From positions 558,001 through 622,000 of the forward strand of contig JAQGEQ010000263.1 of NCBI GenBank assembly GCA_034620365.1: 64,000 nt of DNA, written 5' to 3'. Positions 1 through 64,000 of the stretch are shown here, one piece after another. How positions within the stretch are numbered: the first letter of the stretch is position 1; every line of letters starts with the position of its first letter. The notes beneath the pieces are model-generated. The model made no database searches. It worked only from the letters and a program-made list of their open reading frames with translations, and was not told the DNA's origin. This DNA comes from Pegea sp. RAD2-039 (taxonomy: Eukaryota; Chordata; Thaliacea; Salpida; Salpidae). The translations under genes were made by a program, and so were the position numbers.

Positions 1-2496
1 TGAGATTTGAATGTCAATTAGAAAGCAAAGTGTTTTTGTATCGACGATTATGTAACAACACAAATTACGATGACTCGACCACTTTTGCAATGACGTTAAT
101 TAAAAGTGAAAACGCGATTTTTTGTGCAGCTGTTGCTGATGACGTCATTGTTTATAGAGTCCAGTGAAGATTTGTTTCAAATTTTTAATAATTTCAACTT
201 AAAACGAATTTCTTTCATGAAATTAAAACTTAAATAATTTTCTAAAAATTTGATTTTTTCTTGCCACTAAATGTCGCTAATGAGCAGCTTACGTCAATTA
301 CTGAAGCTTTATCTTTCCTAATTCTTCCCAGTCATTAAAAAGTGAATATTTTGTTAAAATAATCGCTACAAACCTGCTACTATGTTAATGTTTGTAAAGC
401 TTGCTATAAAGTCTAACGACAGCGGGTGGTTTGTATGACATCATCAAGTATTTGAGCTGCTACAAACGAAGGCATTTGGAAAATTTGAAACTTTCTCCAA
501 TTTATTTTTGAGCGTTTATAAAAGTTTAAATATCCCGAAGGTCTCAAATCTTTTGATTTCAATCGATAAGGTAAATATAGAATGTTGATAAAATCTCAAT
601 TTTATGAGAGACTCTGTTTCAATCTTTAAAATGATCAAATTATTCGACCGAATCGACAAATTTTGTTCCTATAAAATGATGTTAAATCTTCTTTCTAAAA
701 GAACAATCCAAAGATATCTGAGTATTCTCTCGATGAATCTACTTATTAAAGACTTTAATATCAGCTCGAATTAACTTCCAGTTTCTTAGGTCTTCAAGAA
801 GATAATTAGAAGTCAATTTTTATGTTCAAACTTTTCTATTCACCAAGCATTTCTTAAAGATCTTTAAAATCGAATTAACTTTACAAAATCGATGAATAAA
901 TTGTTTGAAAACCTTTTTATTTTAAATCGAACTTAACTTATAAGAAGCTCAACATTTTTTTGCAAAATTAGTCATGTGACTATTCAATTTTCACACATAA
1001 CTGTTTGTTAAGTAAAATTATTAAACTAAATTACTGTATCTTCATCCATAATCATGTAAAAATTCTTTAGAGTTTGAATAGCTGAAGACTTAATTATAAT
1101 TTAATCGAATTTAAGATAAAATTAAAGTTTTTTATTTAGAAAGTAAAGAAAGTAAATTCCTTAAGCACACTTAACTAAAAACAACTGTAAAAATGATAGA
1201 TGTAAAAATTAAACCATCAAAACTTTTAACAAAGTCAGATATTGCAATATATCAATTCAATTGTTTAATATGAAAACAATTAAGCATTTATAAAACTGTT
1301 GTTTGAATATAAAAGTATTTTTGCAACTTTTAATGAAGATTTTATGCAAACAAGCGACACGCACTTCTAGTTCCGTTGTAAAGTTGTTTACAAAAAGTCT
1401 CAAAAGTCTTTTGATGTAATTTGTAGTTTGAAAAAGATCTTATTATACATCATGATGGAAATTAGAGGAACTTACAAAACAAAAAATTGAAAATATAAAC
1501 CAATTGATGGAGAAAAGAAGTAAAAATGTGGATTAAACTTGAATAAACTTGAAATTGAAATAATTCTTTATTGGAGAAGAAGTTTAAATTTTAGGAAACA
1601 ACTTTTTCTATCAAGTCTAAAATAAATGTATCGATAAATTGATAAAAACTTGAGCTAAAGTAATAAAAAGAGCTAATTTTTTTGTCGCTATGTTTCTAAA
1701 GGTAAAAATGTAAAAAAAAAAGAAGTTTTAATTATAAAAAAATTAAGTATTTAGTAATAATTGATTTATTTATTTCACAATAACATTCTAGAATACTTTA
1801 GTTGTGAAAACGCTTATCTTGCATTAAAATTAATTTTATACAAACTTATTGCTTATTTACTTATTTAATGATTAGTATACAAATAGAAATTTACTTTTTA
1901 AGCACTTTCATTTTTCTACAGCTGAAAATTGTTTTTGAAATCAATCAATTAAAAGATAGAAAAATTCATTTTTATTTTTTTTAAATCCACATTTAAAATA
2001 ATTCAATTTCTGATAAATCTTTTGATTAATATTTTATTAGCTCTTACAGCAAAAAAGTTTTCAGAAAATTGATGTTGTAAATGTTAATGAATTCATGTTC
2101 TGTACTGAATTACAGTTTCGTCTTTTTATCAAATAAGTATTTTCATTTTTTATGAGTTCTTAAAATATTATTCAAATATTTTGTTAATAAATTATAATTT
2201 TTTTATTTCAACTTTTTTTCCAGAAAATTTAAAAACAATTTTGACAAAAACAAAAAAAGATCGATTCTCAAAAACTGCTCACTTGTGACGTCATTTAACG
2301 AGACCATCAAACAAATTGGCTTTTTTCAAATCTGCATTAATTAAACATCAAAAAAACTCTTTTTTTAAAACATCCTTTTTAACTGTCCAAATCTGTACAT
2401 CATTTACACAAAAACCTCAGAATACAAACAAAGCAACATCATTGACGTCATAGCGGTGTACGCGATCGATACATGACGTCACAGGACGTGCACATC
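1..2496. other. AT-rich intergenic DNA, no gene seen
   Basis: I see no open frame with family resemblance, RNA gene or clear repeat. TGACGTCA octamers occur near 140, 2286, 2443 and 2474, three of them just past the end of the complexin-like gene. The last 200 bases may include the 3' UTR of that minus-strand gene. Confidence 0.6.
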
Positions 2497-3351
2497 TCAC
2501 TCTTCTGCGATAGAAGTCTTGATTTTCGTCCATGACTCTTTCATGATTGAAATAACGCTATGAGCAACTTTCACGACCCCCTCTTCTTCTTCTTGATCTT
2601 GGAGTCGAAGAAGATCCGGAAGACACAGAGCAAGCTGTCGATCCTCTTCACAGGACTTCAATTTGTGTTTTCTTCTCATCTCTTCCCGAAAATTCGCTCT
2701 TTCTGATCTTCTACGCGCCTGCATCATCCGGATTTTTTCTCTGTACATCAAGATATGTATTAAAAGAGCTTTATGACGTCACTAAGCGATCGAGAAAGAT
2801 AAGATTCAGCGAGAAGTTTGTCTCCATATTTGGTCATGAAACGCGATTATTAACTGAAGCGGAAATTGAATTTGACTGAAATTGAAATTGAAGGATAAAA
2901 AGAAGTTATTGAAGCGTAACTAAAACCAGCTGAGTCAATCAAAGTGACAAATTTGGCGTTTAATCAATCTTCTAAAAGCTTCGATATTGAACAATTTAAA
3001 AGTCTGAAAATTGAATTAAAATCGATTCAAGTTTTCAGCGAAATATAAATAATAATTATTATTAATAATTATCAACAATTTTTTGCTTCAAAAACTGTTT
3101 GTAAAAAAAGATGAATTTTTGTGAGAAGTCAAACTCACTGTCGTTCCTTAACCGCTTCTTGGGTTCCATCTTCTTCTTCCTCAACCTCTACAGACTTTCG
3201 TTCTTTATTAGAGTCTTCTGAAAATCCTTCTTCAGGTTCTCCAGTTATCTTTTTGATATGTTTTCCTATCTAAAAAGAACAATTTAAAGTTCTAGGAAAC
3301 TAATTTCAAGATTCCTACTTTTTCGCGTAACGGATTCTTTACAACTTCCAT
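2497..3351 (-). CDS. complexin-like SNARE regulator (3 exons)
   Basis: Exons on the minus strand are 3351-3319, 3269-3139 and 2740-2497 (stop), giving about 135 residues, the usual complexin length. The start M-E-V-V-K-N-P resembles the short amphipathic N-terminus of complexins. Exon 2 is an acidic accessory-helix-like stretch. Exon 3 starts the arginine-rich central helix: the segment MMQARRRSERANFREEM aligns without gaps to the KMEAEREAVRQGIRDKY region of vertebrate complexin, and a basic K-x-K-L-K then an acidic tail follow. Complexins bind assembled SNARE bundles at the presynaptic membrane and control vesicle fusion; that role is inferred from the family. There is no C-terminal CAAX box. 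Exon phases close (33, 131 and 244 nt). The call rests on remembered sequence; another small coiled-coil protein is the alternative. Confidence 0.72.
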
Positions 3352-5039: not shown

Positions 5040-8289
<3,250 letters not shown>

Positions 8290-10653: not shown

Positions 10654-13600
10654 TTAGAATACAGTGACAGTTTTTTCGTGTTCTCCTTCTTTCCCCCATT
10701 TTTTACGATTATTCAGACAACCATCAACCAGTGGTTTTAATTTAGGAGATACTTTTGCTAGTTTCTGAAATTAGAAGTTGACTTTTTTAATTTTATTAAA
10801 GAGCTAACATTATTTTCATCTTGTAAAATAGCTAAGTAGTTTTTAAAAGAATACAGATCAGACAATGTAAATTTAAAACAAGATGTCAGTAAAATAAATT
10901 AACATTTTTCAAATAATTATTAGGTAAGCTCATAAAAACATTTTAAATTTTATGAGTCTTAGAAAAATAGATGTAGATTGGTAATAAAATATTCAGCTTA
11001 ATTAACAACTCTTAAACAAATTAAGCTCTGTTCATTGAAACATATGTTGTTTTGGAATCAATTGTTTTTCATCACCTGATACAAAGGCAAACAAATAGCA
11101 TCAATAAATCCAATTTGCATCTCTGGGAGCTTGTGTTTCAGATCTCTATTCATCATATCTTTTGGATTTTGATGAAGACGTTCTTTTTCAAAGTCTCCTT
11201 GCTCAAAGAACTCTTCAGCAATTTCTTGAGCGATCTGTTTTTAAATAAAAAAACTCAACAATGATTATTAAATCGAGTTTTCAGGTAAAATATTTTCTGA
11301 GTGTAAATAGATAAATTTTTGACTGAAAATCTATCTAAAAAATCCAAAATAGATGAAATAAGAATAAAAAGTTTTGATAAAATACTTTTCGTTGTATTTG
11401 CCAAGGTTTTGTAATAGCGGCGACATCTGTTGACGTCATCACCATGCTCCTGTCAAAAAAAGCAATTTGTAAAAGTTGATAAACTGTGAAAAATAACTTA
11501 GACATAAAAAAGATTTGTTTTTAGAACAAAATCTGAAATGAAACAAAAGTGATCTTCTATCAAAGTATTTTGACTTTGAAAATAATTCTTCTAAATTAAT
11601 TAAGTTTCATACTTTTCAATTAAAACGAATGTTATGTCAGTAAGTATCAAAATGAATCTATTTTTCAGGATTTTAAACATCAAACCTCAACAGAGACTTG
11701 TGCTTTTCGTTTGTCCAATCATATGATTTCGTGTCAACTACATCAAAGAATTCCTTTCTTCTTTGGAAGTATACGGCAAGATCAGTACTGATGATGGAAT
11801 GCTCAATCAAACGTATCACTTTAGTGTACTGAGATTGACTTAAATGTGAAAATATTTCACAACCTGAAATCATGTTTACAAGTTAGAAGATTTAAATGTC
11901 AACAAACTTGAATAAAAAAATACAATTTAAACTGATCGCCTAAGGCAAGATATGAAAGTTGAAACTCAAGAACTGACAAGCAACTAGTTGATAGAATGTC
12001 TTTAGTAGAATGCACAGAAATCAAAATTTAAAGAAAGCTTGTCTTTTATTGATTTGTTGCTATTTTACAACATTTGTGTTTGAGTTTGCAAGAAAAAGAA
12101 AGATCAAAGTAAAGTTTAATGTTTGCTTTAATTTGACTTTGTTTAACTTTAAGCAATAACTTTTTAATATTAAACAGTATTATTGTTCGATTTTAGACAT
12201 TTTTAAAATAGCATTATCAAAACTTTACTAAAATTATCTGAATAAAAACATTTTTTAAACTGTAGGAAGATCAGGAAGTGATATGTCATGGAGTTAGATA
12301 CAAATTGAAAAGAAGATCTTGTTCAAGTCGCTTCAATTGGATCACATCTCATAATCATCTTAACAATTACAATTGCTTCCAGCAAAAAGGACTTAATCAC
12401 CATGGTAACAGCTGATGACGTCATCATACTACATTTAAGCAATTGAATTTGTAGCGAGTGACTGTGACGTCATCCGCTATTTGGTATTCGTCGAAGGTGT
12501 TTGTTCTTTACCAGAAAACGCGATTCAGTTTTTTCAACTGCATTTATTGAATGAGACGAAAATGGCCATTTTGAGGCCAAAAACTGATTTCCATGATTTG
12601 TTACTGAAACTGACAGAATGCGGCGACGTGAGTCGATGACGTCATCAGCTTTCTATTTCACTTTGAATAACTTTTATAGGTTTGCAGTTTTATGCAGAAG
12701 CGAATTGAATCAATGAACGACTTGTGGATCGAATCGATGACCCGAATATCGCGTAATGACGTCATCACCACTACTAATAAACCGCCCATGAAGATTCTAT
12801 TACATATGGGACTATTAACCAAAGAAATGGGCTTGAACTTTGGCATGGCTGCCCTTCATGGTGGTCCATTAGGTGAATTGGTTCAGTGGTCGGACCTCAT
12901 GGCTACACTACATCTTTTGGGTCATGACGTCACGTTGTCATGGTCACCAGAGCGCCTGGAAAAGTTGCTAGGCAACATAGATGATTTTAATGGCTGTCTC
13001 CCAACAAAAAGAAAATTCGATCTCGTCTTTACTGATGTCAACGGCGTTTCTCAAGTACTGATGACGTCACTGGCTGCTAATGAATATGATGACGTCATCT
13101 TTTGTAGATGATGCAAACTTTAGGAAGTCTCCATGACTACCGTTGTGTCCTAAGAGTTTTGGATGTGTTTGGAACCGAAGCAGAGTTTAATCATCCATTG
13201 TTTAATCCAAACAAACACCAAGGCGGTGATTGGGGAGGTGCTGACGTCATCAGTGCTGTGTGATGACGTCATCATCACGTGTTGCAGGTCGTGGTTTAAA
13301 TCTTGCTCAATTCTTCACTCACTTTCCACATTCACCTGACAACTCATTTTTGGGATTTGTCGTTGCTAAGCAACCTGAGGTGATGACGTCACGACTTCGG
13401 TAATTCGTCATTTGCAAAAGTTGTTTGTTGATCACATGGTTTTGTGACGTCAGAGATCGAGCGCTACTTTACGGGAAGCGAAGAGAAGTTTTGCGTGGTC
13501 GGAAGAAAGAAGAGTTTTTGGAGCTGATACGTCATCAGTTTCCCGATGTCCACGTCACAATGGAAGGCAAAGTCTCAGATGACATCATTAACCACGGAAA

Positions 13601-16600
13601 TGTGGATCAGGAGACGTTTTTAGGATTGTTACGAAGCGCGAAGCTCTTTGTTGGCTTTGAATCACCTATAGAGGGTCCTGCTGCCCTGGAAGCGATTTCA
13701 CAAGGAGCTGTCTTCCTTAACCCCAAATTTGATCCACCAAAGAGCTTAGATCTTTCAAAACCAACTCGTAGAAAGATCAAATCTCAGAATCCTTTTGCTG
13801 AAGAGTTTATTGGTGAGTTGATCTTTGTGGTGATCTTTTTGAGACCTTTCTTTCGAATCAGGGGAGCCTTTTGTTTATACAATTAATATCCGGAACCATA
13901 CTGATGTTAATCGCGTTTTGTCAAGGATACAACAACAACCTGCCAATCAACCGTTTGTTCCTCATCAATTCACATTTGAAGGATTCATCGAGGCATGTGA
14001 AGATCATTTAATGATGTTGCGATCTTATTTGCTTCTTTACAGCGAGTCAACGGCTACGTGAGTAATCAAGATTTCTGCCCGGGTGAAGTAAAATATTTGG
14101 CGGGAACAATGACTTCTTGGATCGGTCAAAAATCCGAATTATCTCCGAGTCTTAATCAGGTATCTTTTGACATCAAATTTGAATCTTTTTTAATTGAGTT
14201 TAAACTTTAGATCAAGACTTCAAAGCCTTTTGAAAGCTGTACGGCGTCATGTAAACGTCACAAACTCATTTGTGAGCCTTCTTTTTTCAGTAAGATCAAT
14301 AATTATGAATCTTTTCAAGCAAATAATGTCTTATGTTCTTCTTTTCGAACGATATATCCGAGAAAAGAGTTGGAATCATCTTCATTTTCTCTGATTCCCA
14401 CTTATCTTCCTTCTCTTGATCTTACAACTAATGAATGCTTGATTCAATCTGATTATCTTCTCTTTTCATGTGCCTCACATCCTCCAAAAGATATGATTCG
14501 GTTATGTCCTTGTAAAATCCCACAAAAATGATCAATTTATAATTTTCATGTCTCATAAAGTCTTTAATTTAAAACTAATTAAAAAGTTGATGAAACGGTG
14601 AAGACCTTCACTTTGAAGAAGCATCAATGATTGATTAAAATGATGATTCTCCATCGTTGATGTAGAGTACAATCTCGCTAATGGATGTTCAATCCTACAA
14701 ATTTCAAACTTCTTTTAAAAATCTAATAAAATCTTTTTAGAGACACAAAAAACTATATTTTTGCTGATAATAAAATAACAAATTCTATTTACTTTGCTTG
14801 GAAGTCATTCGTCCGACCGCGGTGGTCTAAATCATGACAAAGACAACTTACAAGGACTGCAAGCTTCTCAATATCATCAAATAAGTCCCCAAGACCTCCT
14901 TGAGTCATCATACAAAACGCACTTTGACACACATTGAATGCATGCCTCCAATTATGATATCTAACCGGTCGATAGTTGCGTTTTACACTTGCTAGCCATC
15001 GACAGAACACCTTCACGAAATATCATATTCAATTATTGATGTTATTTAATCATCAAGACCTCAGTTTCAATGTGGAACTTCTCAAAAAGATCTAGATCTG
15101 TAAACATCCGTAGAGATGCTCGTAAAGTGTCATCTGTATCCATTAAAAGATCACTAAACTGAAAAGAAAAGAGATTGTATGTCCTAGAAGATGGGATATC
15201 CGTAATCTATAATATGTTAGATTGTTGAATTGCTTAGTGATTGAAGTGACTAACCATTAGAGGTTTGTATTCTTCTAAAGGTGCAATGGCGTGATATGAT
15301 AAAACCTGTAGAAAGCGAATAAGTCAACAGATAGTTGTTAAATCATAACTAAAAGTCCTTTTGTCGCAACATAAACATTTACAGATAAAGATTTATATCT
15401 ACATCAATCGAAACTGGTCATTCAGATGTTTGCTTACTTCTAAAACAACTTGTTGACGGGCAGCAAGTTTTGCTTGTGACTCATACATCTTCGCTTGTGA
15501 AATACCGAGACCACAAAAGATTGCAAATGCTTCTAGTAAATGTCCATCACCTTTTGTGAACTTGTTCCCTTTACTTTCAAATTTATTGATAAGTTGGATT
15601 ACACCTGAAATCATCAACATCTTCAATTCAAGCTCATTTGATGAATGACTTTTTAGCTGATGATTAATTAGTCACAAGACACTCACCAATGACTTTATGC
15701 TGACTATTTTTAATTGGGACACACAATAAGGACCTTGTTTTGATTCCAACTAGTTTATCTTCCTGGAAACAGGAAGAAAATGAACCTTTTTCGTCAACAT
15801 CACATAACCTACCTCAAATGAAAATCTTCGGTCTTTTTTTGATTCAGAAACATTTACCGTCTACAAAAAAAGAAGATTAATTAAAAAGATCACGTGTTGA
15901 TGTGTACGAGTCACCTCTCCCGACTGCCGAACATGCGTCACAATTCTCGAATTCAAAGGAGTTTTATGAGGACTCCCTTTAATCGATAAAAGATCACCAA
16001 CCTCATCAGACACATGCTCAAAAATCTGACTGACAAAAACTGCAACAACCAATCAGAATCGAGTTGGTTGTGACGTCATCACAACTCACCATCACTTTTT
16101 TGAGGGTCACAAAGTTGGACGTTTGCTCGCTCGCAACTCAGCAAGCTCGTCACGTTGATTAAAATCTTGTTGATGACTACATTCAGTGATCTTTGCTCCT
16201 CAAATAACATCCGAGCAAGCTCCAGAAGAACCTGTGTATGTGATGACCTCATAGATGAGTAGACGTTGCTGTGATGACGTCATCACCTCATTACGACGAT
16301 TTTCAATTTTGATTTGTTCGAAAAGTTGCGCGTTGTTGATGACAATTCCACAGAAGCTGAGATAAGATGCAAAGACCTTCTCATCTTTTGTGTTAAATGG
16401 TCCGTCGTTCTTATTGATTGCTTGAGCGACCCCTACAATCTAAAGGAAGATGTTTGTGTCATCAAATAAATGATGAAGAAGAAGAAGATAGAATTTGAGG
16501 AGAATTGTTGCTTTTGCTAATTTTGATCCTAATTTTGTTATATCAATGTTGATAACTTTTGAAATTATAAAATTGGCAAATGAGAGATGTAGATGGTGTA

Positions 16601-35917: not shown

Positions 35918-39061
<3,144 letters not shown>

Positions 39062-41155: not shown

Positions 41156-41614
41156 TAAAATGGTATATCCAGTTAGATATAGTAATAAGTTGAGTTGTAA
41201 ATCCTATTAACGTTAAAATATACCTTTTGATTCTTAATTGGATTATTTTTTATCTTTAATTTCAACTATTGACAATCTCAAAAAACTTGTTTGTATTATA
41301 TAAGTTCCAACCAAGTTTTTGTAAGATATGAAAATAATACAGTTTGTTTTAGATTAAATTAAAATTGACAAAAATGTAAAAAGTCAAAAAAGTTCATTAA
41401 ACTGATTCTAATATACAAAACTATAAGAATAGTGACGTAATAATCATACCATCAACTCTTCATTGACTTGTTAATTTCATTTTACAATTTATTGATCGGA
41501 AGTTATTTCAAAGTGATTTACTTTCAAACTTTTTTCATATTACGATTATAACTGAATTTATAATTGTTTATTTTCTGCTATTTCTCCAACTACATCTTCT
41601 CAATAAGAAGAACA
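41156..41614. other. spacer between LINE copy A and the small basic gene
   Basis: AT-rich. A pyrimidine-rich stretch and AATAAG (AG at 41607-41608) lie just before the start codon of the next gene. Nothing else seen. Confidence 0.45.
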
Positions 41615-41984
41615 ATGGCTAAAGCAAGAATTTTGCAAAATACAAAAGCAAAATTGAACTATGCATCTGTAGTTCGTAAATGGAGACGAAACAAACGTCA
41701 CCAAAAGATAAAGTTGCTGAAACAGGTACTAGCACTTAATAATCAATTAAAATATTTCAAAATCTACTTTTACATCAAGGATATTTTGTTTACAAAACTT
41801 TTTCTGACAGTTTATAAAAATGGCAAAAACTAGAAAAGCGAAACCTTTGGCGAAGAACTCAACTTCATGGTCGACTGTATTGAGCGAGTTGACGCAAAGC
41901 AACTCAAAAAAAGCTCCTATTAAGAAGAAGAAACAATCTAAAAAGGTACAAATAACTGAATTATTTGTACTTAAGCAATCATAA
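41615..41984 (+). CDS. small lysine/arginine-rich protein, unknown
   Basis: Exon 1 (41615-41725) encodes MAKARILQNTKAKLN...VVRKWRRNKRHQKIK. It joins in phase 0 to exon 2 starting at 41811, which reads FIKMAKTRKAKPLAKN...SELTQSNSKKAPIKKKKQ and would end at a stop at 41982-41984, giving 94 residues. A good donor (AAG|GTACAA) at 41946 means the gene could instead continue into exons I cannot find, possibly beyond the foldback element and LINE copy B. The composition (over a quarter Lys/Arg, few hydrophobic residues) suggests a nucleolar or RNA-binding protein such as a small ribosome-biogenesis factor. That is inference only; no family was recognised. Confidence 0.55.
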
Positions 41985-42148
41985 ATTAGTTAATCGCTCA
42001 TCTAGTCCAATTCTTTTAAACTCTACTGAGTTTTTAACTTAAATGAGATTACAGAAGGGTTTGTATGAGTCTGCAAGCACAGTTGCTATTTAAATTAGTC
42101 AGTTTAATCACATTTAAAATTTGTATTAATATTTATTATCAATTTTAA

Positions 42149-42650
42149 GTGCGCCCATAAACACCAGACTAAAACGTTGTTATAAATAGGATGAATATTC
42201 TTACAATCAATAACTTATAAAAATTAGGAAAATTTCTAAGTTTTGTAGAACTGACAAAGTCAGTTTGATTATTTTAAAATATCTCTTCTTTTTAGTAACA
42301 TAAAGAAGTTCTGAAAAGTTGTTTCTCGGATTTAAATATTTAAATCTACTTTACTCTGTCGTGGGCAAACAGTGATTTAAAAATTATCAAACTTACTTTG
42401 TCAGTTCTACAAATCTTTATAATTGTCGAGATTTCAAATTGCGACAATAGAAAAGTCAAAGCAGTTTTGAATAAAATCAAACTGACTTTGTCAGTTCTCC
42501 AAAACTTGCAATAAAAAAACATTACAAAGAAGCTAATGAGCTCTATTATAGTAACATATATTAGAGTGTGTCCGTTAGTTACTGATTGTAACAGTAGAAA
42601 TATCCATCCTATTTATAACACTAATGTAGTCTGGTGTTTATGGGCTCACA
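42149..42650. mobile_element. foldback/MITE-like element with about 70-bp inverted ends
   Basis: The left end, starting GTGCGCCCATAAACACCAGA, recurs inverted at the right end (TCTGGTGTTTATGGGCTCAC). The match continues inward about 70 bp to AACAATCAATAACT-like sequence. Internally the palindrome AACTGACAAAGTCAGTT (42249-42265) recurs as variants at about 42389-42410 and 42478-42496 in the opposite orientation. There is no open frame, so it is a nonautonomous element. A target-site duplication is not clear. Confidence 0.8.
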
Positions 42651-42779
42651 TAAAATTAATAATAAATATTAATTGAAATTGATCATTAATTGATTGTCCA
42701 GGGTTTGAGATAATCGCTTTCGATTTTTATTTCTCAGAGTCCAAATTTTCTCGTTTTATATGTACCTACTTACCTACCA

Positions 42780-45475
42780 CCCTCTTAAACTAATGATGAG
42801 GTTACTGTTAGGGCCTTTTTGAAGGGTCTGAAGAGTGTTGTGTGTTCAGAGTTAGATTTTTAGTGGATTTTACTAAAAGTAAAATTGATTGGAATAACCC
42901 GAATTTAGCATTTAGTGGAAAATCGTTTAACTTGGATAGCGATAATACTAATTCAGCCTTTCTAAGTAATGCCTTTGTAAGCTTCCTCAATGCCAATAAT
43001 CTATCTCAGATGGTTATTTTTCTGACCCAAGTTAGTGGTAATAACTTGGATTTTCTTATCACATCAAAACCTGACAACATTATCTACGTTGATCAAAAAG
43101 AACCTTTTGCTCTGACATGCAATTACAATATGGTTGAATTCAAGCTCCATCAAACTTTTTTTATGAACGTTAAAACTTCAAGCAGAAGGAATTTTTACTG
43201 TGGAAATTATAATGGTATTAACAAGTTTCTATCAGATGTTGACTGGATTTCTAATTTCAACTCTTCCGAAGACGTCAATACTATTTACTCAATGTTTACT
43301 AACATCGTTAAAGAGTCAATTGAAAAATTCATACCTCTCTACAGAGCCAACAAAAACCACATTTGCCCAAAAATTTAAAGAATTTACATTATTTAAAAAA
43401 CCTCCTATACAAACAAACTAAAACAGACCCTTCCATCAAATCTCTGTACAAAGATCTTTGTATAGTTTCCAAGAAATCTATTTCTAATTTATATTAAGGA
43501 AGAGAAAATGCAGTTTTATATTCACCTAGCAAGAAAACGTTTTTGGTTTCATAAATTGCAAGCTTAAGGCCAGATCTGAAATACCTCCCCTAATTGATAT
43601 CAGCGACCAGCTTGTGATGAAAAAAGAAAATAAAGCTGAATTGCTAAACAATCAATTTAATAGCGTTTTTATAACTGATGATGGCAATACTCCTTCTCTC
43701 TCCTGCTCAGACATTATTACAAACATCTTTGAGATGGTAGATCCTGAAATAACGGTCAATATGGTATCTAAGGCTATTTCTTCTATGAAATCATCAGTTT
43801 CCAACACCCCAGATCAGATCCCAACTTTGTGTTTAAGAAAAACTACTTCCTCTTTATCACTACATTTATCGCTCTTCTTTAACATGACTCTGAGGCGAGG
43901 AAGAGTTCCACAGATTAGGAAAAAAGCTATTATTACTCCTATTCATCAAAAGGGTCCCAGAAACACTGCACTTAAATACAGACCAGTTTCGCTGACTTCA
44001 GGTATCTGAAAAACTGAAGAACATATCATTCACAATCATATGACCAGTCATTTGAGGGAGCACCATCTAATATCTGATGTCCAACATGGCTTTGTGAAAC
44101 AGAGATCTTCCCTGACTCAACATGTCACTTTTCTTAATCAGCTTACAGCCCATTATGAAAGTAATACTCCCTTTGTCATCAAATTCCTCGAATTTGCTAA
44201 AGTATTTGATTCTGTCCAACACACTAAGCTCGTTACTATATTGAAAAACTTAAAAATCAACAGCTCTATCTTACAGTGGATTGAAGATTACATATCAGGT
44301 AGAACCCAACAAACTCGTGTAGAAAGATCTTTATCTACTTCTAGTCAAATCACTAGTGGTGTTTCTCAGGGTTCTGTTCTGGGTCCTATTCTCTTTTTAA
44401 TTTTCATCGAAGACCTCATCATAAGACTAGTAGCAGTAGATGATGCCAGTGTGTTTGTGTATGCAGATGATATCAAGCTATTATCTTGTAATCCTTCAAA
44501 ACTTCAAACTGTAGAAAACTGGTCTACGAATTGGCAGCTCAGAATCCAGTCCACAAGGTCTGAACTTATAATTTTTCTCGTAAACCAGCTGTAAATTTCT
44601 TGAATCAATACTCCATCAATAAATTTATTATTCAACGAGTATCTTCGATCCTAGACCTTGGCATTACTCTATCATCTGACTTTAAATGGCACAGATATGT
44701 TTCCAAAATCTTTTGAAAATCAATCAACCTTGTTTTGTTTATTACAAAGACCATTAATTCTTAGAACCCATGCTTTTTTTATCAATCTTTTCAAATTGTA
44801 CGTACGTCCAATTCTTGAATACACTGTCAGTGCATTGATGCCATACCAAGTTAGTGATATAAAAAAATCGAATCCGTTCAGGCCACAATTATGAAATTAG
44901 TATGCAGGAAACTTAATATTAAATATGATAGTTATAAACATCGTGTCAGTTTCTTCAATTTAGATACTTTGGAAATTCAGCGGATTAAATTCGACTTAAT
45001 TCTTATTTTTAAAATTATCCACAGTTTAATTGACATTCAGTTTGGTGATTTCTTTTCTATTAGTCCTTCCTTCAAGTTATATCAGCTCAGACGACACACA
45101 TTACATCTTAATAAGCCTATATCACCTAGAACATTGGTCAGAGCAAATTTTTTCTCATACCGTACAATTAAAACAGGGAATCAGCTGCCATCAGACATTG
45201 CAATGTCGAAGTTACTCGCGTTGTTCAAGCATAAGTTGAACCGTTATAATAATGCCAACATTGTCATTTCTAAACTGATTTTTTTTCTCTTTCTTACATT
45301 TTCAACATTCTATGTAATTGTTCACTGTTATATGCTTTGAGTGATATCGAAATGCCATGTGTTACATCTTTTACTTTCTATATTTTTGGCTAAATAGATG
45401 TTATTTGTGAGAATGTGTGTTAGCGAGAGGTGCTCTCTTCAAGTACCCTCCTTCGCATTTATTGTAATAAATGAA
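42780..45475 (+). mobile_element. LINE copy B, CR1/Jockey-like, longer copy
   Basis: Starts in the middle of the endonuclease domain (KSKIDWNNPNLAF, NNLSQMV, NLDFLITSKPDNI), then a linker, the reverse transcriptase (QHGFVKQRSSLTQHV, GVSQGSVLGPILFLIFIEDL, FVYADDIKLLS), the thumb and a C-terminal module (QLRRHTLHLNKPISP...NQLPSDIAMSK). The 3' UTR ends GAGGTGCTCTCTTC... and AATAAATGAATAAAT, as in copy A. The reading frame is interrupted several times and the 5' part is missing, so it is dead. Its exact left edge is uncertain (42,660-42,840). CR1, Daphne or Jockey clade cannot be separated by eye. Confidence 0.92.
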
Positions 45476-47166: not shown

Positions 47167-50100
47167 ATGGGTAGAGACAAAGGAGTACGAACTAAAGGAA
47201 ATGTGAAGCCATCAAGTAGTAGTAGAGCTGCCCAATTACTTCATTCTAAATCTTCTGTTCCTCTTGAGACTTTTTCTGGAGGACCAGCTTATATACCAGT
47301 ATCAAGTTTCACTAATGAAGAAATTGGAATACCAAAAGAGCTTCAAAGATTATTTGCTAAAATTTCAAAAAAAGATCCAGTAACAAAATTAAAAGCATTA
47401 AATGAATTAAATACATCTTGCCAGTCACATCCAGATGATATGATTCAACTCTTACCTTTCTGGTCTCGCCATTTCAACCGCTTATGTGTTGATACAGATC
47501 GTAGAGTCCGTGAATCTGTTCAAATAACAATGAAGAGTTTGGCTATATGTTGCGGAAAAGAACTTGCTCCCTATCTTAAGTCTATTATGGGGTGGTGGTG
47601 GGTATCCCAAAGTGATAGTCATGCTTTAGCAGCTACAAAAGCTCAAGAAGGCTTCCATATTGCTTTTCCAACAGATGAGAAAAAAAGTAAAGCATTAATT
47701 TTTTGTTATGAAGAAGTTTTAAAGCTTATCTCTCAGTATATTTTTTCATCTGTTAAATCAAAACAGACTGATGAGCAAGATTTTATGAATCAGTTAGTTG
47801 CAAACTGTTTAACTTCATTTGTTGCATTTATTAAACAGATTTCTTCAAACCCAAAACATGAAAAAGTAGTTGAAAGTCTTCAGAATATTATTGATAGCCC
47901 CAGATTTTGGAAATTTCAGAAACATAAAACCTCCTCAGTAAGAGCAGCTTTTTATCATATCATTAAAGGAATTTATATCCATAAACCTCAGCTTCTAAGT
48001 AAACATCTTCAAAATACTCATAAGTCAGTTTTTTATGCTTTAAATGAGAAAGAAGGTTCATGTCTGAAAGCTATCTGGGAAGCAGCTTTTGTTATTACAG
48101 CTAATTGTCCTGATTGGTATGATAATCTTGATCTTAATGTTGGTTTTTTACCACAAGTTTATGGAATCATTCAAAGTTCTTTTTCCGGTTATGCATCTTT
48201 TGTTAGTAAACTTTTTCCACAAATTTTTAAGACCTTTCCTACCATGATTAAAACTAAAAATGTTTTTGATAAAATTCTGCAGCTACATTTAGATGCTATT
48301 GAAAATAACAAGTCTACAATTAGAAGTTCAGCTGAAACTAAAGCACTTGTAGCTTCTTTTATAGATTGCTTACAACTGATGATGACTTCATCTTCTGATG
48401 ATGTCATTATTATGTGTAAAAATCACATGTTTTCCATTTTTAAGTCTTGTCTACATGATAATAGCAATAATCCTTATTTGTTAAAACATTTCTTTCTAAG
48501 ATTTTCTCTTTTTCTAAACACTTCTCATGAGTTTAATGGTATTGATGAAATTTGGCAAGAGTTAAATTATATATTAGGTTCATTGGTGGATGATTTGAAT
48601 ATTTATGGATTGAATAATAAACTAGAATCTGAGTTTAGCAGATTTATTCAATTTTTAAAATGTTTTTTGGTGATAGAAAATAGAGAATCTACAAACAAAA
48701 ATGTAAGATTTAGTGATAAGGAATCATCTTTTAAAAAGTATTCAGAAATGAATTCAAAAGTTTTTCAATTTCTGACAAATTTCTACAACCATTTAATCAA
48801 CAATAACATCCAACAAAACTTACAATTATTCATTTGTGAAAACCTTTTTATCTATTTTATCCAAAAACAATTTTTCATCAACATTTTTCCAACTGAACAA
48901 AATCCAGTTTCATTTTTCCTTCTTAATTATTTCTTTCCTTTGTTGACAAAACCAGCAACAGATGGAAGTAATTATCAACTAGATATCAGCAAACAAGTCA
49001 GTTTTGTTTATAAATCATTATGTCATTGTAACTGCCCTGAAACAGATTTCTTCCAACTTATCTTTTCAAAGGCATCTTCTGACTTTAGTTTGAATCTTAT
49101 CAAAGAGACGCTTCAGTCTTCAAATCCATCAAACTGGATTTCTCAGTGGATTTATACATCTAGTGACAAAATGGTCGAATTTATTTGTGATCGAAAACAG
49201 CAACTAATTGATGATCAACAATTATGGTCACTTTTAGAATTGGCATTTACTCCATGGCAACATAAACCTGACACCTGTAAACTTCCAATAAAATCCGTGG
49301 TTCGTCTGTTGGATGCAGTAATCCCATCTTATCTTCTCGATATCGACGCTCTAATCCGTATCTCATCTCTCTTCACTAATCTCTTGCCTCTATTTTCTGA
49401 TCAAGAAGATATAGGGAGGTTGGCAGACTTTTATGTGTGCTTAGTCATCAATTTGATTAATTCCTTGGCACCTGCTCACATCTTAGATCAAATACTGATG
49501 AAGTTGATTCAACTTCACCAACTACATCACTATTTTCTTCAACATCCGACTGAATTAAATCTCTTTTTTCAAAAATCTGCTTCCAGTCTTCAAAATCTTA
49601 TCGTTAAAGATCCGGGGAATTCCCTCATCCACAACTTATCTTCTTCTTTCAAACAAATTCTTATTTCTTTTCCTTCAAACTTTCTTCACTTGTTCCTAAA
49701 AAACTTCCTCCCATCTTCATCTTACTGGGAGTCCTCAGAGATTCGGAACAATCTCTCTTGGAGCGGTTGGATCAATACTCATGACATCTTAAAGGGTCTT
49801 TATGTCCCTCAAACCAATCAAATTTGGACAGAATCACCAACACGACCCACTTACATTGACGTGGTCCGGACTTTCACCAACTTCTGCAACTTCCTTATCT
49901 CGGATCAATCAATGAAAGACTTCTCAGACCCTTCTCTTGATGCTCTTGCCATGGAAACGCTTCTAGCGTCTTCTATCGCTTCCACTCGCGTCTCCCTCAC
50001 CTATCCTTACTCACAATACAAGGATGACGTCATCAAAAACGCTTCGCGCATCGGTCACGGCTGGCTGCTCATCTTCAAATCGCTTTTAAATCTTTGTATT

Positions 50101-52362
50101 TGCGAATTAGAAGTCACAAATCAGCTGTTGACGCTCGAACTCAATGACGTCACCACCAACGTCTTACTCGTCTTCTGCTATGAATCTGAAGATCAAGAAT
50201 CCCTCCGAAATCTTCTTCATCATCTTCTGCGACTTCCCACTTCCGGTCATCAACTTTTTATTGCTTCTGTTATTATCAATAAGATTGATGACGTCACAAC
50301 TGGTGACGTCACCGCCACAGATGTCCCTTCTGCTGATGTTGCTGATGATGACGTCACAACTGATGATGTCACCGCCACAGGTGACACTTCTGCTGACGTT
50401 GCTGATGATGACGTCACAACTGATGACGTCACCGCCGCAGATGTCCCTTCTGCTGACGTTGCTGATGATGACGTCACACTTGATGACGTCACCGCCACAG
50501 ATGACAATTCTTCTGATGTTGCTAACAATGGCGTCGTTGATGTTGATGACGTCATAAATGATGAAGTCACAACTAATGACGTCACTATTCTAACGCTACT
50601 CGCTGTCACTCAAAGATTGCGTAGTGATTCTAATGACGTCATCTTCGACTCAAGTGACGTCACACTTGTTATTGGATGCTTGGCACTGTTCGAAGAAGTG
50701 GGGCGTGCCCTTGAAACTGGTCACGTGACCTTAAACGAATCTCAATGGGATTTCATTCTTTGTTTGCTGGTCACGTGGTTTAGTGATCTGAAGTCACGTT
50801 TTATCGACCAATCAGAAGACCCGCTGAAACAAAGTCACTTGTGTGCACTTCTAACTCGTCTGTGTGACGTCACAACACGCTTCCATCGTCTACTGACGTC
50901 ATCAACAGCACGCGATGATCCCACATTACCAGCAGGACTCGTGAGTGAGTGGCAGGAGTTCTACTCTCCTCTTGCACATCAAACACTCGTTCATATCTAC
51001 CTCTACGTCATCACTCCGTTACGTCATCACGCTACATACGTCGATGAGGTGATGACGTCAATGGCTTCGTTACTCAAAGATACGGAACGAGGATCGATCC
51101 TCGGAGGTTGCCGGGATCAGTATCCGGAGGAGCAGAAGATTATTAAGAAGCTTCTTCCGCATCTAACAGCTCGATTCACGCCAATGACGTCACTACTAGA
51201 TCGCTTGATCGCGTATGAACTGACGTCGGTGCTGGTGACGTCATCAACAGTGATACAGCCGGATGAAGAGCTTGTCCACTTGGTGGAGCTGCTTGCATCA
51301 CAAATTGATCTTTGCAATCTGCCAACATTTACTTCTCAGCCAGTGAATGACGTCACAATTGAAGAAGATGATGACGTCACATTAGATGAAGATGATGACT
51401 TCACGTTTGAAAAAGATAATGACGTCATATCTGACAAGAATGATGACGTCATATGTGATAAAAATGATGAGGCCAAGCATGAAGATGATGACGTCATACG
51501 TGATGAAGATGATGACGTCATCTTTCCGAGAGATCTTCTCACAAATTACTTTCTCGTTTTTGATCTACTTCTCAAACAACTTGAACGAATATCTCTGGAA
51601 CAACGACGTCATCACATCGTCAAACTCGATGACGTCATCAATCATCTATTCCGCTGTCTTCTGTCATGTCTTCCGCATGATTCTGATCATTTGTTTCAAA
51701 CATCGCTGCGCGTTTCTGACGTCACTACATTTCACGATCACGTGACGTGTGTGACTTACAAGCAGCTACTGAGAAGTGTCCCGGCTCTGGTCCGTTCCAT
51801 CTTCCATAATGCTGACCGCAAGACCCAAACCCACGTTGATTGGTACACTAGAAGTTATGTGAGTCCGTTGCTATGTCGTGAAGAGTTGAGAGTGGTTGCT
51901 AGGGAAGATCAACCGGATCAGATGAAGATCATATCTCGTCCTCAGCTCCGAGAAGTCCTTGCATCTTATGAGATTTCGGATGCGCAGTTTGAGATTAGTA
52001 TCAAGCTCCCGGCAAATTATCCTCTCAATCCTGTTGATGTAGAAACGCTGAAAAGAAGCGGGATCCCTCTCGCTCAATGGCGTTACTGGATCTTACAGAT
52101 GACGTCACTGTTGCATCAAGAAAACGGAAGCATCGTTGACGCTTTATCGCTATGGAAACGGAAAGTTGATAAGCGATTTGCTGATGTCGAAGAATGTATG
52201 GTTTGTTTCTCGGTTGTGCATTCAAGTGGAACTCGATCGCTTCCTACTCTCGCTTGTAAGACTTGTCACAAAAAATTTCATCCTCAATGTCTCTACAAAT
52301 GGTTTGATTCCAGTAATCAATCAACATGTCCTCTTTGTCGTTCTGTTATGTTCTTCCGCTAG
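47167..52362 (+). CDS. LTN1: E3 ubiquitin ligase listerin (single exon)
   Basis: An uninterrupted 1731-residue frame, close to the vertebrate length of about 1766. The N-terminus (MGRDKGVRTKGNVKPSSSSR, SKKDPVTKLKALNE, DRRVRESVQ, APYLKSIMGWWW) matches the listerin N-terminal domain. A long HEAT/ARM-like middle follows. The RWD-like region has WYTRSYVSPLLCREEL. The end is the listerin RING-CH variant: CMVCFSVVH, SLPTLACKTCHKKFH, CLYKWFDSSNQSTCPLCRS (residues about 1677-1726). Listerin ubiquitinates stalled nascent chains on 60S subunits with NEMF. The frame contains a four-unit 20-residue acidic repeat (residues about 1041-1119) and a second Asp/Val-rich acidic tract (about 1395-1455). Both are made of TGACGTCA-bearing DNA and absent from relatives I recall. 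The 3' half is also visibly richer in G+C than the 5' half. A gene with about 30 exons in vertebrates here has no coding intron. Confidence 0.96.
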   Translation: MGRDKGVRTKGNVKPSSSSRAAQLLHSKSSVPLETFSGGPAYIPVSSFTNEEIGIPKELQRLFAKISKKDPVTKLKALNELNTSCQSHPDDMIQLLPFWSRHFNRLCVDTDRRVRESVQITMKSLAICCGKELAPYLKSIMGWWWVSQSDSHALAATKAQEGFHIAFPTDEKKSKALIFCYEEVLKLISQYIFSSVKSKQTDEQDFMNQLVANCLTSFVAFIKQISSNPKHEKVVESLQNIIDSPRFWKFQKHKTSSVRAAFYHIIKGIYIHKPQLLSKHLQNTHKSVFYALNEKEGSCLKAIWEAAFVITANCPDWYDNLDLNVGFLPQVYGIIQSSFSGYASFVSKLFPQIFKTFPTMIKTKNVFDKILQLHLDAIENNKSTIRSSAETKALVASFIDCLQLMMTSSSDDVIIMCKNHMFSIFKSCLHDNSNNPYLLKHFFLRFSLFLNTSHEFNGIDEIWQELNYILGSLVDDLNIYGLNNKLESEFSRFIQFLKCFLVIENRESTNKNVRFSDKESSFKKYSEMNSKVFQFLTNFYNHLINNNIQQNLQLFICENLFIYFIQKQFFINIFPTEQNPVSFFLLNYFFPLLTKPATDGSNYQLDISKQVSFVYKSLCHCNCPETDFFQLIFSKASSDFSLNLIKETLQSSNPSNWISQWIYTSSDKMVEFICDRKQQLIDDQQLWSLLELAFTPWQHKPDTCKLPIKSVVRLLDAVIPSYLLDIDALIRISSLFTNLLPLFSDQEDIGRLADFYVCLVINLINSLAPAHILDQILMKLIQLHQLHHYFLQHPTELNLFFQKSASSLQNLIVKDPGNSLIHNLSSSFKQILISFPSNFLHLFLKNFLPSSSYWESSEIRNNLSWSGWINTHDILKGLYVPQTNQIWTESPTRPTYIDVVRTFTNFCNFLISDQSMKDFSDPSLDALAMETLLASSIASTRVSLTYPYSQYKDDVIKNASRIGHGWLLIFKSLLNLCICELEVTNQLLTLELNDVTTNVLLVFCYESEDQESLRNLLHHLLRLPTSGHQLFIASVIINKIDDVTTGDVTATDVPSADVADDDVTTDDVTATGDTSADVADDDVTTDDVTAADVPSADVADDDVTLDDVTATDDNSSDVANNGVVDVDDVINDEVTTNDVTILTLLAVTQRLRSDSNDVIFDSSDVTLVIGCLALFEEVGRALETGHVTLNESQWDFILCLLVTWFSDLKSRFIDQSEDPLKQSHLCALLTRLCDVTTRFHRLLTSSTARDDPTLPAGLVSEWQEFYSPLAHQTLVHIYLYVITPLRHHATYVDEVMTSMASLLKDTERGSILGGCRDQYPEEQKIIKKLLPHLTARFTPMTSLLDRLIAYELTSVLVTSSTVIQPDEELVHLVELLASQIDLCNLPTFTSQPVNDVTIEEDDDVTLDEDDDFTFEKDNDVISDKNDDVICDKNDEAKHEDDDVIRDEDDDVIFPRDLLTNYFLVFDLLLKQLERISLEQRRHHIVKLDDVINHLFRCLLSCLPHDSDHLFQTSLRVSDVTTFHDHVTCVTYKQLLRSVPALVRSIFHNADRKTQTHVDWYTRSYVSPLLCREELRVVAREDQPDQMKIISRPQLREVLASYEISDAQFEISIKLPANYPLNPVDVETLKRSGIPLAQWRYWILQMTSLLHQENGSIVDALSLWKRKVDKRFADVEECMVCFSVVHSSGTRSLPTLACKTCHKKFHPQCLYKWFDSSNQSTCPLCRSVMFFR
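50025..52107. repeat. dense TGACGTCA octamer cluster in the 3' half of LTN1
   Basis: About 27 exact copies in 2.1 kb of coding sequence, against none in the first 2.8 kb of the same ORF. They are read in two frames, giving Asp-Asp-Val-Thr/Ile (GAT GAC GTC AYN) and Met-Thr-Ser (ATG ACG TCA). CACGTG also recurs here (about 50722, 50773, 51739). Confidence 0.92.
50287..50523. repeat. in-frame 60-bp coding minisatellite, four units
   Basis: Units at 50287-50343 (57 nt), 50344-50403, 50404-50463 and 50464-50523. Each encodes a version of DDDVTTDDVTAxDVPSADVA and carries one or two TGACGTCA copies. Unit lengths are multiples of three, so frame is kept. Confidence 0.95.
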
Positions 52363-53774: not shown

Positions 53775-53850
53775 GCGATCCTGGTGGGACTCGAACCCAC
53801 AATCTTCGGATTAGGAGTCCGACGCCTTCTCCATTAGGCCACAAGACCGC
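53775..53850 (-). tRNA. tRNA-Arg (anticodon CCT)
   Basis: On the minus strand the sequence starts GCGGTCTTGTGGCCTAATGG and ends GGTTCGAGTCCCACCAGGATCGC-like. It has a 7-bp acceptor stem with G-U pairs, A-box TGGCCTAATGG, anticodon loop CTCCTAA, B-box GGTTCGAGTCC and no intron. CCT decodes AGG. Eight T residues follow directly on the transcribed strand, an RNA polymerase III terminator. The body matches animal tRNA-Arg(CCT) closely. Confidence 0.97.
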
Positions 53851-61300: not shown

Positions 61301-64000
61301 ATATATCAGTTTAAAAAAATTAGCTGCAACATTAATAAAACATTCTTATAACCTTTTAAAGTTTTCTTTAATAGCTTTATATTTAGGTAGAAAAATTATT
61401 GAATAATAAATATAAAGTTTATTATTTAAGTAGAATAAATTTTTCTTTCGTTTCTTTAAACTTTCTACTCTTCAATTTTTGGCATTTATGAATCAATCAA
61501 TTTAAGATAAAATAAATAATTTTGGATAAATGAATAAATAATAATAATAGTCTAGAAACATTTACTTAAGAAAAAATTACATTTATATTAATTTGAAACA
61601 TCAAGTTGTAAATCAATAAGAATTAGAAATATTAAGAGAAAAATAATTATATAAAAGTCTTTATAATTCAAAACAGCATCCTTATTACGTATTTATGAGT
61701 ATCGTTGGTAGCCAACGCGGCTAATAGTCGTATTTCACACATATAACACATGTTTAGAAGAAATTTGATGTTTAAAATGTACACCATGTATGATTACTAA
61801 AGTTTTTGCTTCTATTTATCTTTAAAAAAAGGTTTTATGTTTTTATAAAAAACATCTGATAGATATAAATCATTTTTTATAAATCAAATTATTTTTTCTT
61901 AGTGGAAACTTATAGTGATGTAAAATTGAGATACCTTAATCTTATTTTTTTCTACTCGTGGTTACACATAGACTCAAAAATACATAAAGCTAAAAATTAA
62001 AGTTAAGATTAAAATTAGAAAACCTTTAAGAACTGCTTCTAGGAAATACTTGCCTTGTATAGTACACTAGAATTAATTGGTTGATTTTTATATTAAACTG
62101 GTATCCTACAAACCAATAAAATGACAATATCGCTTCTGTTGAAACTTGTTATATTTTTTTCTAAGAATTAGGCGATTATTTGAAATGTACCCGCCTGACA
62201 ATATCTTATAAGCGAGACATATACTGTTGAGGTTTAATAAAAAACATCTTTTGCGGTTCTTTTGTCCTCTCATATATCTTTTACTGGTAAGACTTCTATA
62301 GAAAAGTTTTTCCCTGATTCTGAGAAGAAGGAGACCTCACATTTTTTAGATGATAAACTGTTTTCTAACTGACAGCTCTAGTGGTCTTTTTGATTTCCTA
62401 CCAAAGATTTCAATTGCTGTAGATAAGATAAAACTTTTTTAAAATGAACAAATATTTTTCAAAATCAATTTCAAAATCTTTATTTCAAATTTTCATTGAA
62501 AGTAGAAGTATTATTCAAAAGTTGAGAAAGTTTTTGTTCAGATATTTAAAAAAATATTCAAAAATAAAAAACAATTTATTTTCTATTGGTACAAAAATAT
62601 TTATTTATTTATAAAATCAAAGTTATATCTTGTTGATCAAAATGATAAATAATATTTTTAAATATTTTGAGATCTTAAAATATCTTTATTTGGAGTAAAT
62701 TATAAAAAAAAAAAACTGATTAAATTTAGTTCAAAATAGTTTCTACAAACTTTCTATCATTATTATAAATAAAAGTATGGAAGTTTATGAATATATTTGT
62801 GTATGTTTACTTATCTATTTCTTTTTGAACTTTAATACTTATAAATTAAGTAATAAAATTGATAAATTAAGTTAACTAGTTTTAAGCTCACTCTTTTTTG
62901 TTTCTTACAAAACGATATTTTCCTCTGAGTATTTTTAGAGTACAAGACTTTCTACGGAGTACTTCGTGATCTAACATTTTTAGAGTCATTTAAGGACAAA
63001 TTTAATTCATCTACCAAAAAGAAAAACGCTGAAAGTTTGAAATCAGATATGGCAGCTTGTAGCTACTCCTAAAATGATATAATCCAGTTTCTCCTTCTCT
63101 TAACTGTTTCCAGCATTTGGAAGAAAATTTCAACTTTGTTTTTGCAAAAATAAAAATTATACCTTAGCTAAAATAATATTATTCTAAGTTTCATCTAAAA
63201 GTAACAAAACGTTAAACCGATAGTTTAAATAATTGATAAGTTTGCATATCTGATGAATAGTGTTGTTTTATCTTAAAGGACTTGTTTATTTTAAAAATGA
63301 ATTTGCAAAAGTTCACCAACCTGTTAATTGATATCATTGTTTTTATGTTTTCAATATAACTTCAACAACAACAACAACAACAACCATGTCATATGTTTTG
63401 AGAAATACATTAGTTGTGGTTATTTGTTGTCATATTTTGCTCTGATTAAGCTCTTGTAAGCTCAATTCTTGAAAAGAACCAAAAAATTGTTTGTTCCTAT
63501 AAGGAGATATGAGGTAATCAATACAATTTCTTAGTCTGTGGTTGCATTTATGATTAATTTTATAGGAGTTGTTAAAAATAGATTAAACTTTTTTCTCAAA
63601 ATTAATTTATATTCAAGCTAGTTATTATTTTAGAACCGTAATCTTATGACAACTTGGTTATTTGAAAAGTGTTTTGCAAAAAAAATCGTTTTCAAAAGAA
63701 ACATGACTTTTTGATAAAATTAGATGAGTAATTTATTTTGCTGTTTTGATTTTATAAAAGCGTTGATTTAAATTCCTTTCTATTTTTGAGAAGTTAAACC
63801 TACTTATAATTTCAAGCTTATTTTAAAGGTATTAAAGAAAAGTCATAACAAGCTTGTAAAAAGCGATTGTTCTTTTTTTCAATTTGAGCATATTTCAGCT
63901 GCTTTATTCTAAGAACTCCAAGTTAATAGCTCATATACCCCAGAAAAAAATAAGTCAATAATAAGTTGAGAGTAACGGTATTATTTAATTAGTTATTTTT
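58315..64000. other. AT-rich terminal region, no gene recognised
   Basis: About 5.7 kb without a recognisable coding region, RNA gene or TGACGTCA copy. A short CAA microsatellite (63363-63384) is the only clear repeat. Genes may begin outside the window. Confidence 0.55.
63363..63384. repeat. (CAA)n microsatellite
   Basis: About seven perfect CAA units in an otherwise unremarkable AT-rich stretch. Confidence 0.9.

Follow-up and report, generated by a model that had tools for sequence, protein, structure and literature searches.

The eight-letter palindrome TGACGTCA, the core of the cyclic-AMP response element (CRE), is strongly over-represented in the genome of the salp Pegea sp. RAD2-039 (assembly GCA_034620365.1), where it occurs as a sharply defined word with preferred flanks, clustered in GC-rich islands that have kept their CpG dinucleotides and used in coding and non-coding sequence alike. 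The window analysed here is a stretch of 64,000 nucleotides (positions 558,001 to 622,000 of contig JAQGEQ010000263.1, C32 below), which includes the listerin gene LTN1. We favour, at a probability of about 0.45, the reading that such islands would be bound by bZIP proteins and free of methylation, and that TGACGTCA would accumulate in them through a fixation bias acting at the level of DNA.

Copies were counted across the whole assembly (105,744,746 bases, 387 contigs), and expectations were based on base composition, dinucleotide shuffles and reversed-letter controls. The pieces analysed as letters were the 64-kb window, 16 stretches of 10 kb chosen by position, 30 loci of 3 kb chosen by their sites (which, merged with L031, make up 15 blocks of contig C1), and L047 and L048. 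Three pooled samples were drawn from these, all excluding L047 and L048: a 224-kb sample (the window plus the position-chosen stretches), a 160-kb sample (the stretches alone), and a 277.5-kb sample for flank, neighbour and island counts, which includes the site-chosen loci and in which islands are defined by their sites. The assembly holds 27,792 copies of TGACGTCA (one per 3.8 kb), compared with 969 of the reversed word ACTGCAGT, a 29-fold difference that bears out the original prediction, made from the letters of the window, of a genome-wide element. Its count of 59 exact copies in the window, with about 0.4 expected, was exact: 100 dinucleotide shuffles gave a mean of 0.40 and a maximum of 3, and base composition gives 0.45. 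A third-order Markov model expects 4.7 copies (a 12.7-fold excess), but such a model absorbs the motif's own 4-mers. Shuffles and reversed controls together rule out an artefact of base composition. Nor is the density confined to the window, being 922/Mb there (3.5 times the genome mean of 263/Mb) and 325/Mb in the 16 position-chosen stretches, which carry 52 copies, with none in 6 of the 16. The extended form GATGACGTCATC occurs 11 times in the window. Among the papers listed, mostly open-access and without preprints, no title or abstract opening gave an earlier report of such abundance.

The enrichment is specific to the exact word. Genome-wide, 64,917 places match TGACGTCA with at most one mismatch (control 28,668), and the 24 one-mismatch words total 37,125. 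Two of these words, the CpG-transition products TGATGTCA and TGACATCA, reach 5,503 and 5,567 against 1,373 for the control, about 4 times as many; the other 22 average 1,184, compared with 1,154 for control words, although single words may differ. The 12 sampled islands contain 98 exact copies and 19 one-mismatch words over the 24 types, and in 277 kb one such word, TTACGTCA, is raised (13 observed, 3.3 expected). Specificity extends to the flanks: 23,214 of the 27,792 copies read RTGACGTCAY (control 228), as bZIP-type flanks around the CRE core that the original prediction had recognised. A sample of 140 copies, 17 of which lie in tandem arrays, was read from both ends and has A (0.59) or G (0.30) at position -1, that is A or G in 89%, G in 0.42 and C in 0.07 at position -2, and T in 51% at position -3, beyond which the preference fades. 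Such flanks match the CRE matrix of ATF/JDP2-type proteins, and the counts fit RTGACGTCAY as the real unit, as a bZIP dimer of CREB/ATF type would read it.

Related words were enriched selectively. The 7-bp spacing of AP-1 is hardly enriched (ATGASTCAT 1,041, control 787, genome-wide; TGASTCA 35, with 40.7 expected, in 277 kb), and PAR and C/EBP words lie near expectation in the same 277 kb, which rules out a general enrichment of bZIP sites. A second palindrome, TCACGTGA, is enriched genome-wide (4,614 copies, control 237), and 3,577 of its copies take the form RTCACGTGAY (control 57); the mixed forms TGACGTGA and TCACGTCA show no enrichment (3 of each observed, 2.1 and 2.0 expected, in 277 kb). 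Dimers of the bZIP CREB/ATF type read the CRE and those of the bHLH-zip USF/TFE type read RTCACGTGAY, and the set of enriched words fits symmetric dimers of these two types. The genome gave 12 matches to bZIP_1 (PF00170) over the cut-off, a family-level assignment that stops short of CREB/ATF orthology.

Copies are clustered (variance/mean 3.6 in 500-bp windows), and the concentrations seen earlier by eye were recovered by counting, with 11 copies at 12,416-13,452, 9 at 27,203-28,809 and 27 at 50,025-52,107; the near-absence from AT-rich DNA was confirmed as well, 2 of 111 copies lying in the 63.5 kb of the 224-kb sample with GC < 0.25. For the composition test, that sample was divided into 448 windows of 500 bp, and the sites were masked before measurement. 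At GC ≥ 0.40, the density is 7.37 sites/kb where the observed-to-expected ratio (o/e) of CpG is ≥ 0.85 (70 copies in 9.5 kb), 1.22 sites/kb where it is 0.5-0.85, and 0.14 sites/kb where it is < 0.5 (1 site in 7 kb), and the observed effect was reached in 0 of 300 permutations of CpG retention within GC deciles. Because the window had been flagged for TGACGTCA, the analysis was repeated on the 160 kb alone, where 31 of the 52 copies fall in 5.5 kb of GC-rich CpG-intact DNA and 1 in 7 kb of GC-rich CpG-depleted DNA (permutation again 0 of 300).

The 12 sampled islands (at least 3 copies each) are 412-2,383 bp long, carry 4.3-11.3 copies/kb and all have a CpG o/e of 0.94-1.60, the sites' own CpG included; the 16 position-chosen stretches have values of 0.53-0.73 (12 stretches), 0.33 (one) and 0.96-1.25 (three). 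In L032 (10 kb, GC 0.37, CpG o/e 0.33) there are 6 copies, and its small island stands at o/e 0.94. Pooled GC outside CpG/TpG/CpA contexts is 0.304 in islands and 0.246 in their 1.5-kb flanks, uncorrected for exon content, being higher inside in 10 of the 12 islands and lower in 2. With 61 occurrences in the pooled 224 kb, words like CTGGTCCC suggest that a repeated unit is present.

LTN1 (Table 1) places a border of this kind inside one uninterrupted frame. Its best database relatives come from Clavelina, Phallusia and Ciona, and a listerin tree joins the window row, whose branch is long (3.21), to six tunicate-like rows (support 92/96; drawn open) and gives it no supported sister. The frame has no sites at CpG o/e 0.17, none in a middle stretch (49,000 to 49,875) at 0.61, and 27 at 1.04, a border that supports the favoured reading; third codon positions have a GC of 0.20 over the first 1,935 bases and of 0.42 over the last 2,349. 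Among the 27 copies, 22 read x.GAC.GTC.A (Asp-Val, DV) and 5 read xTG.ACG.TCA ([MLV]TS), while the third frame would give a stop. Some copies lie in inserted acidic repeats and others in ungapped alignment. DDV occurs 15 times in this listerin and not at all in six tunicate-like homologues (these include four named species of three genera, and one is a 999-aa protein). At one site the octamer is created by a change in a stretch that all six share (Table 1), a stretch that a simple pattern did not find in the 14 other homologues. Conservation at the copies averages 0.78 identical homologues of six, versus 1.42 at other residues of the 3' part. Judged from these alignments, the gain of copies has come at a cost to the protein. 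Of the 34 DV pairs in listerin, 22 have the single combination of codons and neighbouring bases that yields the octamer, which together with the non-coding copies rules out a codon or protein-level preference. A search for a second haplotype of LTN1 returned, among the candidates scored, only the window itself and repeat matches elsewhere. In the assembly as searched, the COX1 family had no match. An open frame of 877 codons that is mostly DDVI/DDVT repeats lies on contig C57 (Table 1); there GAC encodes 65 of the 95 D residues that precede V and 18 of the 145 others.

Elsewhere in the window, copies were likewise found in coding sequence, predicted introns and spacers, as had been noted from the letters. 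The MGAT5-like island has 3 copies upstream of the first aligned exon, 3 inside it (12689-13063) and 5 in the 388 bp separating the two aligned exons; the second exon (13452-13817) has none, its edge being touched by a copy at 13445, and these limits are those of the alignment rather than mapped splice sites. In total, the 741 bp aligned as exon carry 3 sites and the remaining 811 bp carry 8. In the ASCC1 island, 5 copies lie in the coding sequence, 1 (28205) in the 56-nt intron 2 (28202-28257) and 2 more on the 3' side (28616 and 28802), so that the 826 coding bp hold 5 sites and the 464 non-coding bp hold 3. The predicted splicing of ASCC1 is backed by a 96%-identical database protein (P0021), except for a 3-residue difference opening exon 2, and in that protein the residues at each of the five coding copies are unchanged, although with 12 substitutions among 332 residues such agreement is not significant. 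Islands run through introns and coding sequence, and the claim that the density of copies is not promoter-like is supported. Because both islands fill coding and non-coding DNA alike, a role in splicing is unlikely; among the roles first listed for the word, chromatin and biased repair both survive and fit the present data alike.

The two very short predicted introns of the window (48 and 56 nt) hold TGACGTCA and TCACGTGA palindromes, and the exon pair joined across the 48-nt intron has no Pfam match. Further copies of TCACGTGA lie at 26428, 28245, 33539, 50721 and 51738. Another island gene encodes a KCNT-like potassium channel. Of the frames tested against Pfam, 5 of 10 had no family, nor did 6 of another 9. 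Open frames at 40129-45340, apparently two copies, resemble by eye the reverse transcriptase of elements without long terminal repeats, and no TGACGTCA occurs between 39 and 46 kb of the window.

Table 1. Features of the window and of other contigs (contig named where it is not the window; copies are of TGACGTCA unless stated)
Feature	Position	Strand	Basis
Small island, 4 copies	2286-2781		
11-copy island spanning a glycosyltransferase-18 (MGAT5-like) gene	12416-13452		
Predicted 48-nt intron, largely palindromes (one RTCACGTGAY, one TGATGACGTCA)	26420-26467	+	GT...AG and open frames
One copy upstream of ASCC1, within an open frame (DDDVIT)	27203-27210		
ASCC1 gene, 3 predicted exons (27460-27641, 27682-28201, 28258-28563)	27460-28563	+	
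Three copies of TCACGTGA (28470, 28501, 28564)	28470-28571		
LTN1 (listerin), uninterrupted frame of 1,732 codons	47,164-52,359	+	Pfam
LTN1 5' part, GC 0.30, CpG o/e 0.17, 0 copies	47169-49000	+	
LTN1 island, GC 0.45, CpG o/e 1.04 (sites masked), 27 copies	49875-52257		
Coding 60-bp/15-bp tandem repeats, 9 copies	50286-50585	+	
Coding 24-bp tandem repeat, 6 copies	51347-51521	+	
LQMTS (ATG ACG TCA, octamer created); LQMTM in 6 of 6 tunicate-like listerins	52100-52107		
tRNA gene, 3' of listerin	53776-53848	-	Rfam
877-codon open frame, mostly QQTDDVI and EEDDVIAEEG repeats, 62 copies	L048 (C57), 3-2633	-	
C5-methylase frames	C57:819728-826344, C249:1740707-1742050, C32:10146-38173, C52:9209-10639		

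Under the favoured reading, a bZIP dimer of CREB/ATF type would bind RTGACGTCAY and maintain an open, unmethylated island in the germ line, and the companion RTCACGTGAY would be occupied by a bHLH-zip protein of the USF/TFE type. Bound copies would hold the island CpG-intact, and new copies would be favoured there, either by weak selection for a bound island or by biased conversion in open germ-line DNA. The reading supposes that the sites are bound, that CpG-intact DNA is unmethylated, that the sites cause this state rather than follow it, and that their fixation is biased. A bias at the level of DNA is needed because the copies cost protein sequence; selection and conversion drive fit the present data alike. 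If the ratio of exact to one-mismatch words reflects a mutation-fixation equilibrium, the scaled bias would be about ln 18 = 2.9 genome-wide and, under the same assumption, at most about ln 124 = 4.8 inside islands, the latter figure being inflated because the islands were picked for having sites. In Ciona sperm, DNA is either nearly fully methylated or free of methylation, and the transitions are sharp and bear no relation to start or stop codons (PMC3827831); by analogy with this precedent, the LTN1 border may be read as a methylation border. Mouse CREB1 occupies almost only unmethylated CpG islands; methylation blocks it, and it makes chromatin more accessible (PMC9729108).

Several points weigh against this reading. 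The need of CREB1 for unmethylated DNA equally fits an order in which the island came first and the sites later. In the available text of the Hi-TransMet study, CREB is absent from the listed methylation-protecting factors in embryonic stem cells and appears only among demethylating factors in neural progenitors, and USF appears only in the title of a reference (PMC8184831). A protein change at a conserved residue is hard to explain by selection for an island already holding 26 sites. The CpG o/e of 1-kb windows with GC ≥ 0.33 is not cleanly two-peaked (25 of 61 fall at 0.6-0.8), which makes CpG-intact a weak proxy. The companion E-box is found in 10 of 48 windows with a CRE versus 13 of 400 overall, but at GC > 0.35 these figures become 6 of 34 and 5 of 64, so that the association arises partly through GC, and windows are not independent units. 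Finally, the 12 bZIP_1 matches were judged an ordinary number, from this genome alone.

Among the alternatives, we entertain tentatively a process like that of the highly iterated palindrome HIP1 of cyanobacteria, in which heteroduplexes able to form bound or methylated TGACGTCA would be repaired toward it without any benefit. HIP1 is spread rather evenly, and the strong clustering of TGACGTCA departs from this; the RTGACGTCAY flank and the RTCACGTGAY companion also look like the work of zipper proteins rather than a methyltransferase site. The sharpness of the word, its spread into coding DNA at a cost in amino acids and the way single islands take in both coding and non-coding DNA would fit such repair, and localized biased conversion would give the higher GC outside CpG/TpG/CpA contexts, a difference that stands without correction for exon content. 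HIPs accompany sequence-specific methyltransferases (PMC4390886), and this genome has seven long frames of the C5 DNA-methylase family. These frames, predicted by family match, are 832-873 aa long, contain no stops and fall into two score groups. They have the look of intronless, multi-copy sequences, and those of C32 and C52 are close to the start of their contigs; the likely host C5-methylase genes are on C262 and C49. A bolder combination, an animal counterpart of the bacterial HIP that we consider rather unlikely, is that the CRE palindrome in its bound state would bias germ-line repair or conversion its own way, spread through open islands, overwrite conserved coding sequence, exclude methylation and so set the borders of a mosaic methylome. 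That the clusters are ordinary regulatory DNA, homotypic CRE clusters serving as enhancers or promoters of neighbouring genes even from exons, would account for the factor-like flanks and the companion E-box; with 27,792 copies, one per 3.8 kb, and 27 in one listerin frame, we find it quite unlikely. In a study of Ciona enhancers, TRTGACGTCA is the one significant shared motif, present 10 times in one 1.8-kb region; in one module the motif spans a needed site, and in the remaining regions it falls outside the minimal modules (PMC11001920). The available text on Ciona start sites gives no positional bias of the CRE (PMC1796609). One-mismatch variants, usual in enhancers, here average the control level.

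Meiotic hotspots of the M26 type, at which an ATF/CREB dimer bound to ATGACGT opens chromatin and attracts double-strand breaks even in an exon, share the core and the protein family with TGACGTCA, and the elevated GC inside islands would suit them. A break-attracting allele gets converted, however, and hotspot motifs should be lost rather than gained, which makes this explanation very unlikely. M26 of fission yeast, a point mutation within ade6, shows that meiotic chromatin can be opened by a CRE located inside a gene, and sites of this type have been linked to about 20% of natural events (PMC9775316). An origin as by-product of acidic coding repeats (DDVI/DDVT minisatellites) or mobile elements could point to the two arrays in LTN1 and the C57 frame; it is largely refuted and hardly credible, given that arrays hold 17 of 140 sampled copies, that other copies occupy predicted introns and spacers, that none lies at 39-46 kb, where the retroelement-like frames are, and that DV pairs in LTN1 favour the octamer-making codons and context. 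The last candidate, relics of a word once made everywhere that survives only where CpG is unmethylated, is rejected on the counts of its decay words TGATGTCA and TGACATCA in the 224-kb sample: they are raised genome-wide and the intact copies do sit in CpG-intact DNA, but there are 7 decay words in 67.5 kb with CpG o/e < 0.5 versus 8 in 56.5 kb with o/e ≥ 0.85, and 1 in the 14 kb with GC ≥ 0.35 and o/e < 0.5. Because CpG-depleted DNA is not enriched in them, survival of relics has next to no probability.

The suggestion in the original prediction that ascidian genomes are rich in this word finds only indirect support, from the Ciona enhancer motif above and from a Ciona protein. A database search with the DDV-repeat frame gave three hits, a Ciona protein (LOC100180670, 14 DDV in 743 residues and [MVL]TS at only 1.3 per 1,000), a cyanobacterial protein, and a metagenomic protein (14 DDV and 11 [MVL]TS in 794 residues), where 140 other proteins average 0.42 DDV and 0.60 [MVL]TS per 1,000. 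DDV repeats alone are not diagnostic, since one of the three hits is cyanobacterial, and because DDV was selected by the query and [MVL]TS was not, only the metagenomic protein shows both signatures. The six tunicate-like listerins without DDV speak against richness in ascidians. Together, DDV[I/T] and [MVL]TS offer an easy proteome survey for TGACGTCA. An eight-letter word so dense in conserved animal coding sequence suggests that a force at the level of DNA can outweigh protein constraint at many loci, and it offers a candidate for the sequence that sets the abrupt borders of mosaic methylation in ascidians. When motif finders are applied to ascidian enhancers, a hit to TGACGTCA may reflect no more than how common the word is.

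Among known systems, HIP1 and the alternate HIPs of cyanobacteria (GCGATCGC and others) are also 8-bp palindromes strongly over-represented genome-wide, and TGACGTCA shares with them its over-representation in coding and non-coding DNA; it differs in belonging to an animal genome, in clustering into islands, in its factor-like 10-bp consensus and in its second palindrome. One-off variants of HIP are biased to the outer positions (PMC4390886), whereas the raised variants of TGACGTCA are the central CpG transitions, outer-position variants numbering 0-4 each in 277 kb. Copies lack a common flanking sequence, unlike those of mobile or tandem repeats. With CRE and CREB/ATF sites of vertebrate CpG-island promoters, TGACGTCA has in common the core and flanks and the location in CpG-intact DNA: the letters give a purine on the 5' side and a pyrimidine on the 3' side in most copies, an 8-bp spacing and bZIP genes in the genome, and, as would be expected of unmethylated CpG islands, a CpG o/e near 1 with raised GC in a CpG-poorer genome. 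It differs from those sites in lying in exons and introns rather than at start sites. M26 of fission yeast (ATGACGT) is likewise an intragenic CRE-like site to which an ATF/CREB dimer binds, a likeness that here is one of sequence, and TGACGTCA differs from it in having accumulated genome-wide. The unmethylated domains of Ciona sperm also end at sharp borders inside genes, unrelated to the start or stop codon, as does the CpG-state border in LTN1; no sequence determinant is named for them in the available text (PMC3827831), whereas here a candidate word fills the CpG-intact side.

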